Origin: a virus
Reading direction: 5' to 3' (one strand)
Virus record (IMG/VR): IMGVR_UViG_3300045258_000159
Coordinates: 1-38,655 of that record
Length of the DNA: 38,655 bases
Numbering within the stretch: the first letter of the stretch is position 1; every line of letters begins with the position of its first letter. A program made the translations under genes and the position numbers. The notes under the pieces are model-generated. The model saw only the letters and a program-made list of their open reading frames with translations, had not been told where the DNA came from and made no database searches. Below are positions 22,396 to 30,860 of the stretch, one piece after another.

Positions 22396-23296
22396 CGCGC
22401 AGGTCGACGCCCGCCGCTCCGGCCTCGGCGGCTCCGATGCTGCCGCCGCCTGCGGCGTCTCGCGCTGGCGCTCGCCGCTCGACGTCTACCTCGAGAAGCG
22501 CGGCGAGGCGCCCGCATTCGAGGGTAACGAGTACACGAAGTGGGGCGAGCTGCTCGAGCCCGTCATCCGGCAGAAGTATTCCGACGAGACCGGCCGGATC
22601 GTGCGCCTGCCCGAGCAGACGCTCCGACACAACGCGATCCCATTCATCCTCTGCCATCCCGACGGCGTGACCGACGACGGCCGCCTGTTCGAGGCGAAGA
22701 ACACGCGCCACGACCACGGCTGGGGCGAGCCGGGATCGGGCGAGATCCCGCAGGAATACCTCGTCCAGGTGCAGCACAACATGCTGGTGACGGGGCTCAC
22801 CGTCGCCGACGTGGCCGTGCTGGTCGCGGGCTCTGACTTCCGCATCTACGAGGTCCACGCCGACGTCGAGTTGCAGGAGCTGCTGGTCGATCGCGAGTCG
22901 GCCTTGTGGCGCCGAATCGAGCGCGCCGAGCCGCCGGCCCCGGTCAACGCGCGGGACGTGCTCGCGCTCTACGGGCGCGCCTCGCAGGACCTGCGAGTGC
23001 AGGCGTCGTTCGAGGTCGTCGGCGCGGTGGCCGCGCTCGCGGCGGCCAAGAAGGCATCCACGCTGCTCGAGCACGAGATCGAGCAGATCGAGACCGCGAT
23101 CAAGGCGCACATGGGCCACGCCGACACGCTGGTGAACGGCCGCGACGTGCTGGCGACGTGGAAGGCATCGAAGCCGGTCGCGCGCCTGGACACCGCCGCG
23201 CTCCGCAACCAGCACCCCGACATCGCCGAACAATTCACGCGCCTCGGAGAGCCGAGCCGCCGCTTCCTCCTCAAGTCGAACGGAGATTCCCGATGA
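22385..23296 (+). CDS. YqaJ-family viral exonuclease (lambda Exo-like)
   Basis: The gene encodes 303 residues from a GTG preceded by GGAGG. It contains the YqaJ/lambda-Exo motifs: RRSGLGGSDAAAACGVSRW, KWGELLEPVI with Glu54, HPDGVTDDGRLFEAKNT with Asp93, Glu103 and Lys105 (PD-(D/E)xK core), and a Gln-rich YLVQVQHNML segment. Such enzymes digest one strand from DNA ends to start single-strand annealing recombination. It is followed, with a four-base overlap, by a probable annealing protein. Confidence 0.9.
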   Translation: MLTDAQVDARRSGLGGSDAAAACGVSRWRSPLDVYLEKRGEAPAFEGNEYTKWGELLEPVIRQKYSDETGRIVRLPEQTLRHNAIPFILCHPDGVTDDGRLFEAKNTRHDHGWGEPGSGEIPQEYLVQVQHNMLVTGLTVADVAVLVAGSDFRIYEVHADVELQELLVDRESALWRRIERAEPPAPVNARDVLALYGRASQDLRVQASFEVVGAVAALAAAKKASTLLEHEIEQIETAIKAHMGHADTLVNGRDVLATWKASKPVARLDTAALRNQHPDIAEQFTRLGEPSRRFLLKSNGDSR

Positions 23297-24507
23297 GCAC
23301 GCTCTCGCCGCAGACCAGCAACCCCTTCGGCTCCGCGCCGATCGCCGCCGCGCCTCAGATGGCCTCGCAGGCCGCGCTCGTCCAGCGCGAAGTGGCCGAG
23401 GTGCAGGCCGCCATGATCATCGCCAAGCGGGAGCCGCGCGATCCGCGCCGGGCGATGGACCTGATCCTGAACAACTGCTCGCGCGAGGGGCTCGCCGAGC
23501 GGTCGATCTACCAGTACGCCCGCGGCGGCCAGGACATCACCGGCCCGTCGATCCGGCTCGCCGAGGAGCTCGCGCGCGGCTGGGGCAACATCCTGACCGG
23601 CGTCACCGAACTGTCGCGGCTCAACGGCTACTCCGAGTGCCTCGCCTATGCGTGGGACCTGGAGACCAACTTCCGCGACGAGAAGCGGTTTCAGGTCAAG
23701 CACTGGCGCGACACGAAGAAGGGCGGCTACGCCCTGACCGACGAGCGGGACATCTACGAGACCATCGCCAACTCCGGCGCGCGGCGGAAGCGGGCCTGCA
23801 TCCTCTCGGTGATCCCGATCGACGTGCAGGAGGCCGCCGTCGAGCAGTGCGAGCTGACGATGCGGACCAAGATCAACGTCACGCCGGAGAAGATCGCCTC
23901 GATGGTGGCCGCGTTCGCCGAGGTCGGCGTCACGAAGTCGCAGCTCGAGCGCCGCATTCAGCGCCGAGTCGAGACCATTACCCCGGCGCTCATGGCGAAC
24001 CTGGGCAAGGTGTTCAACTCGCTCAAGGACGGCATGTCGCAGGTCGTCGACTGGTTCGACCCCGATCCCGAGACGCCCAACGGCGCGCCCGCGCCGACCA
24101 GCCGCGCCGAGTCGGTCAAGGATCAGATCAAGCAGCAGACGGCTCCCCCCGCGCCCAAGGATGGGCAGAGCGAAGCGGCGGCGGTCGGGGAAGGGGGCGT
24201 CGTCTCCGCGCCGTCCCCGGAACCGGCCGCCGGGGACGACCGATTGCCGTTCGATGAAGGTGAGGAGGCGCCGGGGCAGGACTCGGACGGGACCGTGCTG
24301 TCGCAGCGCGTCCACGCGATCGCGGTCGAGCTCGGGATCTGGGCAGAGGGTCGCGGCGTGACGCTCTCGGGCCAGATGGCGGCCCGCCTGGGGATCGAGC
24401 CGGGCATCGCGGCGCTGACCGACATGATGGCGATCAACAAGCTCGAGCTGCTCCACGGCATTCTGCTCGAGACGAAGGCGAAGAACACGAGGCAGCCGAA
24501 GAAGTAG
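23293..24507 (+). CDS. Probable phage recombination (single-strand annealing) protein
   Basis: The protein has 404 residues from an ATG overlapping the exonuclease stop by four bases. The conserved-looking part (about residues 45-235) includes AKREPRDPRRAMDLILNNC, SIYQYARGGQDITGPSIRLA and ACILSVIPIDVQEAAVEQCE, which I recall as a widespread phage family found beside Exo genes. It lacks the usual RecT or Redbeta wording, so the annealing role is inferred from pairing with the exonuclease. Residues about 255-345 are acidic and Pro/Ala/Gly-rich, and a helical domain ends the protein. Confidence 0.65.
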   Translation: MSTLSPQTSNPFGSAPIAAAPQMASQAALVQREVAEVQAAMIIAKREPRDPRRAMDLILNNCSREGLAERSIYQYARGGQDITGPSIRLAEELARGWGNILTGVTELSRLNGYSECLAYAWDLETNFRDEKRFQVKHWRDTKKGGYALTDERDIYETIANSGARRKRACILSVIPIDVQEAAVEQCELTMRTKINVTPEKIASMVAAFAEVGVTKSQLERRIQRRVETITPALMANLGKVFNSLKDGMSQVVDWFDPDPETPNGAPAPTSRAESVKDQIKQQTAPPAPKDGQSEAAAVGEGGVVSAPSPEPAAGDDRLPFDEGEEAPGQDSDGTVLSQRVHAIAVELGIWAEGRGVTLSGQMAARLGIEPGIAALTDMMAINKLELLHGILLETKAKNTRQPKK

Positions 24508-27407: not shown

Positions 27408-27694
27408 ACTGGCGCGCCTCGTGGATCTACCAGTGCGACGACTGCAAGGGCCTCTCGGTCTACACCGAGCACCCGGCGCTGCTGGTGGCGTGCCCGACAT
27501 GCAAGGAGCCCGTCGACGAGAAGTGTACGGGCGATGGTGGGCGCTACGAGCGTCAGCCGCACAAGGCGCGCATCGCGCTGGCCGCGCAACTCAACCGCGA
27601 CCGGAAGACGGCGATTTGCGAGTGCCCGGCCCCGCCGGTCGGTGCTCGCAAGTCGAAGCCGGTCGACACCGCGACGTCCGAGATGTTCGGGTGA
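27404..27694 (+). CDS. Small zinc-ribbon protein
   Basis: The gene encodes 96 residues from a GTG overlapping the previous stop. YQCDDCKG and ACPTCKEP form two CX2C knuckles typical of a zinc ribbon, with further cysteines at EKCTG and CECP. A basic helix (PHKARIALAAQLNRDRK) lies between. A nucleic-acid-binding role is plausible. It is one of several small Cys-rich proteins in this early unit. Confidence 0.65.
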   Translation: MNWRASWIYQCDDCKGLSVYTEHPALLVACPTCKEPVDEKCTGDGGRYERQPHKARIALAAQLNRDRKTAICECPAPPVGARKSKPVDTATSEMFG

Positions 27695-28050
27695 GCAGTC
27701 TCCGCCAGAACGTCGCCCACCCCCGCGGCGAGGCGCAGCTGACGCTGTGGACGCCCGCGGGAAAGTACGAGGCGCAATACCTCGAACACCGCCGCGCGCA
27801 TCCGCAGGTCTTCGATGAGCTCGTGGCGGCGGCGCGGGAGGCGCGGGCGCGAGGATGGAAGAAGCTGGGCATTCGCGCGATCTGGGAGCGGATGCGCTGG
27901 CGGCGAGGTCCCAAGCCGCTCGACAGCGCGGGCTTCCACATGAACGACCACCTGACGGCCTACTACGCGCGCGAGATCGTCGCGAGCTGTCCTGACCTGG
28001 TGGAGATGTTCGAGCTGCGGACGAGGACCAACCCGGAGGAATCGGCGTGA
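27691..28050 (+). CDS. Early phage protein of a recurring unknown family
   Basis: The frame of 119 residues starts at a GTG overlapping the prior stop. The central part, ELVAAAREARARGWKKLGIRAIWERMRW, then FHMNDHLTAYYAREIVASCPDLVEMFELR, is a pattern I recall from small proteins of several phages, all helical with a conserved N-(x)4-AYYAR block. No function is known to me. Position suggests a role in DNA metabolism or host takeover. Confidence 0.65.
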   Translation: MSSLRQNVAHPRGEAQLTLWTPAGKYEAQYLEHRRAHPQVFDELVAAAREARARGWKKLGIRAIWERMRWRRGPKPLDSAGFHMNDHLTAYYAREIVASCPDLVEMFELRTRTNPEESA

Positions 28051-28583
28051 CCTGCATCGTTGCGATCAAGGACGGCGGCAAGGTGCACATGGGATGCGAC
28101 TCGATCGGGACGGACGGCTGGCGCAAGCAGGCGCGCACGCGGCCGAAGCTGTTCAAGAAGGGGCCGCTGCTCATCGGCTACTGCGGCAGCTTCCGGATGG
28201 CGGATCTGCTCGAGTTCAACCTCGACGTCCCGAAGCTCCTGCCGGATGAGGACCTGCCGACGTGGATGGTCAAGGAGCTCGTCCCGGCGGTGCGCACCAA
28301 TTTCAAGGAAGGCGGATACGCGACGAAGCACGACGACGCCGAGCGCGGCGGAGACTTCCTCATCGCGGTGCGCGGCCGCCTGTTCTGCATCGAGAGCGAC
28401 TATCAGGTCGGAGAGACGACGCGCGAGTACGCCGCTCTCGGAAGCGGCGAGCCATTCGCGATGGGATCTCTATTCGGGACCGAGGGCCGGGCGGTGCTCG
28501 ATCGTCTGCAAGTCGCACTCGAAGCCGCGCATGAGATGTGCGCGACGGTGGCCCCGCCGTTTCACTTCCTCGCGGAGGACTGA
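28047..28583 (+). CDS. Proteasome/HslV-like Ntn-hydrolase peptidase
   Basis: The gene encodes 178 residues from a GTG overlapping the upstream stop. After removal of the initiator Met, Thr becomes residue 1 (TCIVAIKDGGKVHMGCDS). Asp18 then becomes 17 and Lys34 (RTRPKLFKK) becomes 33, the catalytic Thr1/Asp17/Lys33 spacing of HslV and proteasome beta subunits. Later blocks LLIGYCGSF and YAALGSGEPFAMG match the family glycine loops. The length suits HslV (about 175). No HslU-like ATPase is visible, so it could use a host unfoldase or act alone on small substrates. Confidence 0.8.
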   Translation: MTCIVAIKDGGKVHMGCDSIGTDGWRKQARTRPKLFKKGPLLIGYCGSFRMADLLEFNLDVPKLLPDEDLPTWMVKELVPAVRTNFKEGGYATKHDDAERGGDFLIAVRGRLFCIESDYQVGETTREYAALGSGEPFAMGSLFGTEGRAVLDRLQVALEAAHEMCATVAPPFHFLAED

Positions 28584-29059
28584 TGTTCACGCTGACCGTC
28601 TCAGGGATCGAGATCCGGTGCGATAGCGCAGGTGACGCGGCCGAGCTCGTGCGCGCGCTCGAGGCAGAGAAGGCGGAGCCCACGCGCAAGCAGGTCCTCG
28701 CCGGGGTCAAGTTCGCGACCCGCGCGGCGCGCAAGGCGCGCGGTGTCGCCCGCGACGATCTTGCGGCGGGCTTCACCGACCCGCCGGCGAAGACAGCGCA
28801 GACCAAGGAGGTCCCGGTCAAGCGCCTGCCGCCCGGCGTGTCGAAGGCGGACGCGGTCGCCACGAAGAAGCCGAGGGGGGGGTCCGGTCGACGGCCGTCG
28901 CTCACCGATTCGGAGATCACGGAGATCCACGCGCGTTACATGGCAGGCGAGCGATCGTCCGACCTGTGCCAGGAGGCGGGCGTCAGCCTCGCGCCGCTCT
29001 ACAACGGCTTCAAGAGGCTCGGGCTGCCGATCAAGGGGCGCTCGGGCGGGAACGGATGA
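28583..29059 (+). CDS. Early protein with a C-terminal resolvase-like HTH
   Basis: The 158-residue protein starts at an ATG sharing one base with the prior stop (TGATG). The N-terminal part (FTLTVSGIEIRCDSAGDAAELVRALEAEK) suggests a small strand-helix domain, followed by a basic Lys/Arg/Ala linker. Residues about 103-155 (RPSLTDSEITEIHARYMAGE, then DLCQEAGVSLAPLYNGFKRL) resemble the DNA-binding HTH of Hin-type resolvases. No recombinase catalytic domain is present. It is likely a regulator or DNA-binding adaptor. Confidence 0.65.
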   Translation: MFTLTVSGIEIRCDSAGDAAELVRALEAEKAEPTRKQVLAGVKFATRAARKARGVARDDLAAGFTDPPAKTAQTKEVPVKRLPPGVSKADAVATKKPRGGSGRRPSLTDSEITEIHARYMAGERSSDLCQEAGVSLAPLYNGFKRLGLPIKGRSGGNG

Positions 29060-29270: not shown

Positions 29271-29701
29271 AACGCAAACAGGTTCGGCTCTACGACGGTG
29301 GCGCCAGGCATCGCGAGCTCGTCGCGCAGTTGTACGCGCGCGGATGGTCCAGCCGCGGATGGATGGCGACCCTCCTGAGCGCCGTCCAGAACGACGAGGA
29401 GTGGAGCTGCGCGCTCGAGGACGATTCCCTGGAGGAGATCAAAGAGGCGAGGGTCGTTCCCGACGGTTGGATGTTTTACTCCGAGGTGGAGAGCGGCAAG
29501 ACCGTCCTCGCTTTCGTCGAGGTCGAGGTCACGAGCCCGGTGTCCGAGGACAAGATGGCCGCCTATGCGAACCTGTTCTGGGAGCTGGACGTCCTTGAGA
29601 TCGCGCTCGACGTCGTGGTCGTCGACTATGCGGGCGAGGCGTCGCACCTCCTGGGCCAGGCCAACATGGTCGAGCGCATGTTCGGCGGGAGCAGGGGATA
29701 G
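29267..29701 (+). CDS. Possible nuclease-like protein (PD...EVEV...K pattern)
   Basis: The frame of 144 residues starts at a GTG overlapping the upstream stop. An N-terminal helical HTH-like part (ELVAQLYARGWSSRGWMATL) precedes VVPDGWMFYSEV, TVLAFVEVEVTS and SEDKMAAYANLFWEL. The order P-D, E-x-E, K...Y is like replication-relaxation and restriction-nuclease-like proteins. The usual Lys of E-x-K is replaced, so activity is doubtful. Function is inferred weakly. It lies between two excisionase-like HTH genes. Confidence 0.5.
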   Translation: MKRKQVRLYDGGARHRELVAQLYARGWSSRGWMATLLSAVQNDEEWSCALEDDSLEEIKEARVVPDGWMFYSEVESGKTVLAFVEVEVTSPVSEDKMAAYANLFWELDVLEIALDVVVVDYAGEASHLLGQANMVERMFGGSRG

Positions 29702-29709
29702 GCGCCCAG

Positions 29710-29892
29710 GTGAAGCCCGCCACCGCGCTGCTGAGTGCCTCGGAAATCGCGGCAATCCTCAAGATCCCCGCGAAAAAGGTCTACGACCTCCTCCGCGAGG
29801 AGGGCCTGCCTTGCTACCGGATCGGCCGGCGGGTACGTTACGACCCGGGAGAGTTCGAGCGCTGGCTCTCGACCCGAAAGGGACCAGCATGA
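29710..29892 (+). CDS. Excisionase-like HTH protein beside integrase
   Basis: This 60-residue protein starts at a GTG and overlaps the integrase start by ATGA. LLSASEIAAILKIPAKKVYD, then EGLPCYRIGRRVRYDPGEFERWL is an Excise/HTH_17 winged-helix pattern. Overlap with the integrase gene makes a recombination directionality factor (Xis) likely. It could bind near the candidate attP about 1 kb downstream. A function in phage excision is inferred from context. Confidence 0.75.
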   Translation: MKPATALLSASEIAAILKIPAKKVYDLLREEGLPCYRIGRRVRYDPGEFERWLSTRKGPA

Positions 29893-30860
29893 GACGACAG
29901 CGTGGCCTCTACCGCCGCAAGGGACGCGACGGCTGGCACGCCTGGGTTCGCGTGGACGGCGAGCCCCGGCAGCGCAAGATGGGCACGACGCTCATCGAGG
30001 CGCAGGCGAACCTCAAGAAGGTGCGCGCGCAGGGGGGCGCGCCCGCGACAACGACGGTTGCCCAGGCGATCGCGGTGTGGTGCGAGACGCAGCTCTCCGT
30101 CTCGCACGGCTCCGCTCGAGGCCGGGCGATCGTTCTGGCGCGAGCGGAGAAGTACCTCGCCCGGTTCCTCGGCTTCGACCGCGTGGCCTCTCTCGGCTAC
30201 GCGCGCCTGAGCGAGTACCGGCTCTGGCTCGACACGCAGGGGCTGGCGGCGCAGACGGTGCATCACCTGATGGGAGATCTGAGGGGCCTGCTGCTGTTCC
30301 TCGTGCGCACCGGGCGACTGGATCGGACGCCGTTCGATCGAGCGCTCATGCCGCGGGTTCCGCAGCGTCTCGCACGGCCGCTCCTGCCCGAAGAGGCGCG
30401 CGCGGTGTGCGCGATCCCGGGCGAGCTCGGTTTCCAGTGCCGGCTGGGCATCGGGAGCGGGTTCCGGTTCTCCGACCTGTGCGGGCTCGATCGGACGCAC
30501 TTCGACGGCGCCGCGCTCGTCCTGGTGGCGCAGAAGACCGGGCGAGTGGTGCGGGTGCCGCTCGATCAGGAGCTCGCGGACGAGATCCGCGGCCGGATCG
30601 GGCGACTGTTCGATCGCTCACCGAACGCCCCGGGATCGTTCAACCGGAGCGTGCGGGCCGCCTCAGGAGTGGCCGGATTTCACGCACACCGGATGCGCCA
30701 CACGTTCGCGAACCGGATGCGCGCGAAGGGCGTGGACATCTACCGGATTCGCGACTTGCTCGGGCACCGGACCGTGACCACGACCGAGATCTACCTGTCG
30801 TCGGTGGCGGCATACGACCCGGAAACGGTACAGGCGGTGACCGAGGTTGTGACCGGATAG
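29889..30860 (+). CDS. int: Tyrosine-family integrase
   Basis: The gene encodes 323 residues. An Arm-type beta-rich N-terminus (GLYRRKGRDGWHAWVRVDGE) and a SAM-like core-binding domain precede the catalytic domain. Candidate catalytic residues are Arg193 (GSGFRFSDL), Lys216, His267 and Arg270 (HRMRH), His293 (LGHR) and Tyr302 (TEIYL), in the usual order. It would join phage and host DNA at an att core; a tRNA-like core begins 48 bases after its stop. A 10-bp palindrome GCGCATGCGC overlaps the last base of the gene. Confidence 0.95.
   Translation: MRRQRGLYRRKGRDGWHAWVRVDGEPRQRKMGTTLIEAQANLKKVRAQGGAPATTTVAQAIAVWCETQLSVSHGSARGRAIVLARAEKYLARFLGFDRVASLGYARLSEYRLWLDTQGLAAQTVHHLMGDLRGLLLFLVRTGRLDRTPFDRALMPRVPQRLARPLLPEEARAVCAIPGELGFQCRLGIGSGFRFSDLCGLDRTHFDGAALVLVAQKTGRVVRVPLDQELADEIRGRIGRLFDRSPNAPGSFNRSVRAASGVAGFHAHRMRHTFANRMRAKGVDIYRIRDLLGHRTVTTTEIYLSSVAAYDPETVQAVTEVVTG

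Follow-up and report, generated by a model that had tools for sequence, protein, structure and literature searches.

What kind of enzyme does a phage encode when it carries a gene resembling the HslV peptidase and no unfoldase beside it? This question is raised by an ORF on the plus strand (28047-28583) of a 38,655-base virus record, the whole stretch of DNA analyzed here, which we call the window. The record contains a minus-strand structural block with terminase, portal, head, adaptor, and tape measure genes, a plus-strand early/lysogeny block with a RusA-type resolvase, an integrase, and a helix-turn-helix protein, and an endolysin at its right; the virus is a temperate tailed phage. Proteasome homologs of this sort have been described before. 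A phage "HslV" without HslU was reported in 2020 (PMC7823757), and the group I homologs AAH, PPH, and CPH were described by Fuchs, Alva and Lupas (2021; PMC8665760), who found AAH and PPH in many phages and without AAA+ partners. A phage-borne proteasome homolog without an unfoldase is thus an already known kind, and there is nothing new in that headline. We assigned the ORF to the AAH type, i.e., a group I, BPH/HslV-related threonine Ntn hydrolase, on the basis of its reading frame, profile matches, and structural model.

The ORF has a GTG start and encodes 178 amino acids. The initial annotation had placed it at exactly these coordinates with Thr1, Asp17, and Lys33 as catalytic residues, and the three indeed occupy positions 1, 17, and 33 after Met removal. 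The mature protein begins TCIVAIKDGGKVHMGCDS once Met is removed, which would expose the predicted nucleophile Thr1 (codon ACC, 28050-28052); the codons of Asp17 (GAC) and Lys33 (AAG) lie at 28098-28100 and 28146-28148. Third-position GC is 87%, the level expected of real genes in the window, and a GGAGG ribosome-binding site (28035-28039, plus strand) lies 7 nt upstream of the start. The start overlaps by 4 nt the stop of a co-directional upstream gene of unknown function (PHROG 13625; 27742-28050, the end of ORF 27421-28050), and the stop overlaps the ATG of a co-directional downstream gene (28583-29059) whose small product weakly matches a resolvase-type helix-turn-helix. On the same strand follow a tyrosine integrase (PHROG 1; 29565-30860), a marker of the lysogeny/early module of a temperate phage, and an excisionase-like helix-turn-helix protein (HTH_17; 29710-29892).

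Given the composition of the sequence, Thr1/Asp17/Lys33 would coincide by chance at 7e-5 per ORF, a figure for residues picked after the fact. By themselves, the three matching residues are weak evidence; what we take as decisive, as judged from sequence, is the match of residues 1-171 to the PHROG 1040 profile ("peptidase HslV family"; E 6.8e-21). A Pfam search of the protein returned no relevant match, and with the NCBIfam HslV model it reached 13.3 bits, where the cut-off is 137. A tblastn search with the protein recovered 190 isolate phage records at a best identity of 39.6%, and the matches named as PHROG 1040 include T5-like, Geobacillus, Moorella, and Tenacibaculum phages. Within PHROG 1040 the protein is a distant member, no more than 40% identical to those of isolate phages, and we found no other difference from the family. 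Used alone as a query against viral contigs, the window protein gave no relatives, whereas an alignment of ten phage proteins gave hundreds, and AAH matches were obtained in at least 348 viral contigs.

Structure prediction, proposed in the initial annotation as a check, returned a proteasome-like Ntn fold. The AlphaFold (AF2) monomer model of the window protein (pLDDT 95.9, pTM 0.90) has helices at residues 49-58, 70-88, 135-144, and 150-164 and a terminal strand at 172-177. BPH was the top Foldseek match (E 2e-11, TM 0.83), and by VIA Z it scored 21.2 versus 19.4 for the best HslV, with HslV and 20S beta subunits following it. A profile built from 78 AAH sequences gave the same order against the PDB: BPH at 8.8e-7, HslV at 6.4e-6, and proteasome beta at 7.5e-5. 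The loss of catalytic residues in relatives, which had been named as grounds for dropping the claim, was not seen; all 174 sequences examined retain Thr/Ser, Asp, and Lys, with Ser in place of Thr in one, that of phage pT24. These positions had been left out of the search patterns used to collect the relatives. A conserved SSFRM motif was rejected as a sign of constraint because it belonged to the search pattern. In all 174 sequences the Thr (Ser in one) comes immediately after the start codon, which indicates that AAH has no propeptide.

We compared the window protein with each of the known groups by features and distribution. In alignment and model it has the proteasome-like core with Thr1 (or Ser1), Asp17, and Lys33, as well as the compact subunit with H1-H4 and without insertions, a C-terminal H5, or a propeptide, that characterize AAH. 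We found its relatives in Azospirillum, Rhizobium, Mesorhizobium, Frankia, Streptomyces, Myxococcota, and some Firmicutes, as well as in hundreds of viral contigs. Published AAH has a similar range, mainly alpha-proteobacteria and actinobacteria but also other phyla and many phages, and likewise has no AAA+ partner; this comparison revealed no distinguishing feature. The predicted protein thus fits AAH, an assignment made on features and distribution rather than on direct clustering with the published AAH set (KEGG OC.661151). BPH (PDB 5ovs, 5ovt, and 5ovu), the closest solved structure, shares Thr1, an elongated pore loop, and the lack of an unfoldase with the window protein, but the two are only 19-24% identical and the window protein is phage-borne. 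PPH identity was rejected, as PPH has about 140 residues and lacks H2, whereas the window protein, at 178 residues, retains a long second helix (70-88). HslV shares the fold, the Thr1/Asp17/Lys33 spacing, and the length, but it has a short basic linker at the pore between H2 and S7 (RxLRRLE or RxLRKLE), where the window protein has a 16-residue pore loop, EGGYATKHDDAERGGD (residues 88-103 with Met as 1; 28308-28355, plus strand). The loop is exactly 16 residues long in 78 of 78 AAH sequences, with a median net charge of -2, which is mild beside the strongly acidic loop of BPH. The AAH and HslV profiles align only remotely. We therefore rejected HslV identity on the basis of the bit score, the lack of HslU, and the missing short basic linker. 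Of the "HslV/proteasome-like peptidase" initially proposed, a proteasome-type Ntn hydrolase with intact active-site residues stands, and HslV itself does not.

The window had also been said to contain no AAA+ partner, and we found none among its main ORFs as annotated by PHROG and Pfam. A dedicated scan covered 53 other viral records carrying AAH: an HslU/ClpX-type ATPase (AAA_2) above the Pfam cut-off was present in 0 of 11 isolate phages and 0 of 42 uncultivated records, the latter including possible fragments and yielding two weak matches below the cut-off. The same search gave a signal in 14 of 14 control genomes. The absence of an unfoldase is a family-wide, published rule rather than an oddity of this phage. 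A phage peptidase ring could instead dock on a host unfoldase (HslU, ClpX, or, in actinobacteria, Mpa) and redirect host proteolysis, as the HslV-like fold of the window protein might suggest. All 24 bacterial genomes with AAH that we examined have HslU or partial, ClpX-like matches to the HslU profile, but HslU itself, together with HslV, was found in 17, and the other 7, all actinobacteria, have neither. These HslU-less genomes and the loss from AAH of HslV's basic pore linker weaken the earlier suggestion of attachment to a host unfoldase in the case of HslU. Moreover, AAH phages have no co-located ATPase (53 records), and the authors of the BPH study looked for a partner and found none (PMC5777263). 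We consider such docking improbable, while host ClpX or an unrecognized ATPase could serve as a partner. The missing ATPase in the 53 records, the HslU-less bacterial genomes, the lost basic linker, and the BPH-like loop together favor an enzyme with no dedicated unfoldase.

The explanation that we favor, and hold to be fairly probable, is an accessory AAH-type, self-compartmentalizing threonine peptidase of a temperate tailed phage that works without a dedicated unfoldase. Its activity, ring assembly, ATP independence, and substrates are inferred as follows. Removal of the initiator Met would expose Thr1, which Asp17 and Lys33 would activate in the manner of the proteasome, as the intact residues and predicted fold suggest. 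Going by the relatives, since our model is of a monomer, the subunits probably assemble into a closed double ring that resembles BPH and encloses the active sites. BPH is a tetradecameric double ring whose Thr1 reacts with epoxomicin and for which no unfoldase is known (PMC5777263). The pore loop would partly block the entry in place of a regulated gate and limit cleavage to peptides or unstructured polypeptides, making a dedicated AAA+ unfoldase unnecessary, as suggested by the family-wide absence of a partner and the loss of the basic linker. Peptides of phage or host origin and misfolded proteins arising in infection would be the most likely substrates.

Two other activities were weighed against this peptidase. 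BPH was inactive on model substrates, pore-loop mutants included (PMC5777263), and functions vary widely among Ntn hydrolases and within the proteasome family (PMC8665760), so that a non-proteolytic Ntn hydrolase, such as an amidase or a connectase-like ligase with a specific substrate, might be proposed. However, the core of the window protein is compact and BPH-like, without the connectase-type insertion between S3 and S4, and we regard this alternative as highly unlikely. The remote similarity to HslV could also be taken to indicate a catalytically dead regulator or a decoy subunit for host HslV, which is scarcely credible when catalytic Thr/Ser, Asp, and Lys are found in every relative examined. 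An anti-phage defense role was considered as well, and PADLOC gave no match for the window protein.

The 2021 description of AAH reported no informative genomic context (PMC8665760). Gene clustering around 173 relatives revealed TerL, portal, S78 prohead protease, and HK97 capsid genes as recurrent neighbors, which Pfam confirmed in the sampled loci. Among 27 uncultivated viral records with a PF04860 portal, AAH lay no more than 5 kb from the portal in 15, against 5.1 expected; none of 20,000 random-position draws was as extreme (binomial 2e-5), and AAH and portal were on the same strand in 23. Two control genes, the window's early gene 22906-24507 and a methylase, were within this distance in 0 of 7 records with a PF04860 portal (Fisher P 0.011 versus AAH). 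This control set is small and was drawn from these two genes because a viral-contig search with the upstream neighbor of AAH gave no relatives and one with RusA as positional control gave two. As a separate observation, the PF04860 portal was commoner in AAH records (27 of 42) than in controls (7 of 37; P 8e-5), two sets whose hosts may differ.

AAH often sits inside the head operon of these phages, and in four uncultivated HK97-type phages it does so at differing junctions: TerL-portal-AAH-protease in L086 (3439-8980; overlaps of 4 and 17 nt), TerL-AAH-protease/capsid-portal in L053 (618-6469), portal-AAH-protease-capsid in L068 (2655-7325), and TerL-AAH-portal-protease-capsid in L021 (572-6252). 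Since the junction differs among phages, several independent insertions of AAH are likely. A tree of the 78 AAH sequences, too poorly supported for counting the origins of the head-operon location, has 14 changes of location, only 2 of them forced by well-supported branches. The head-operon association is possibly a new lead, short of a demonstrated function.

One reading of this association is that AAH serves head assembly as a specific protease for processing or clean-up, co-expressed with the head genes and acting on scaffold, delta-domain, or capsid by-products. The proximity to the portal in HK97-portal phages and the position inside a TerL/portal/S78 protease/capsid operon, at several junctions and with start/stop overlaps, argue for it. 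On the other hand, a tolerant insertion site would yield the same pattern, the sampled phages retain their own S78 prohead protease, and in isolate, large virulent phages AAH lies amid nucleotide-metabolism or uncharacterized genes. In the window, it lies about 12 kb from the portal and on the opposite strand. We judge this reading unlikely, and it is equally doubtful that AAH was repeatedly recruited into head operons for ATP-free trimming or degradation of prohead-maturation peptides and misfolded subunits. A role as a substitute for the prohead protease was rejected, as S78 protease genes adjoin AAH. Proteasome homologs are common among phages, with intact active sites and without a known partner, and we found no function for them in the accessible literature. 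The repeated placement in head operons provides a concrete, testable hypothesis of AAH function, and a role in head assembly, if true, would be the first for any viral proteasome homolog.

In the window, AAH lies within the early/lysogeny block, next to the integrase module, and was found in 0 of 34 viral records, some of them fragments, that have the early gene 22906-24507. It is thus an accessory gene, an optional passenger in this phage group. The early gene itself encodes a large protein with a strong match in its central part to PHROG 3657 (E 1.8e-92), a family without an assigned function, and the window's member is common to 34 viral contigs. The initial annotation had suggested action early in infection, which is plausible for this phage, given the plus-strand module beside the integrase, but cannot be generalized because many AAH relatives lie within late head-assembly operons.

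The relatives showed several further variations. Arthrobacter phage Pitbull has an AAH-like gene at the right end of its genome, two genes ahead of the terminal HNH gene (L003:6001-6968); the 2021 paper did not find AAH in actinobacteria-specific phages (PMC8665760). Pseudoalteromonas phage J2-1 encodes an AAH domain fused to a C-terminal extension, about 200 residues long and without an assigned function (L008:3001-4167). The HslV gene of Rhizobium mayense (G008:C121:172709-173227, the genome of locus L118) contains an in-frame TAG inside the matched stretch. Two strains of Rhizobium lusitanum, R. leucaenae, and R. freirei carry an identical AAH gene with a stop after residue 38 (L154, L156, L157, and L159; 8001-8546), a pseudogene that is probably located on a shared plasmid.
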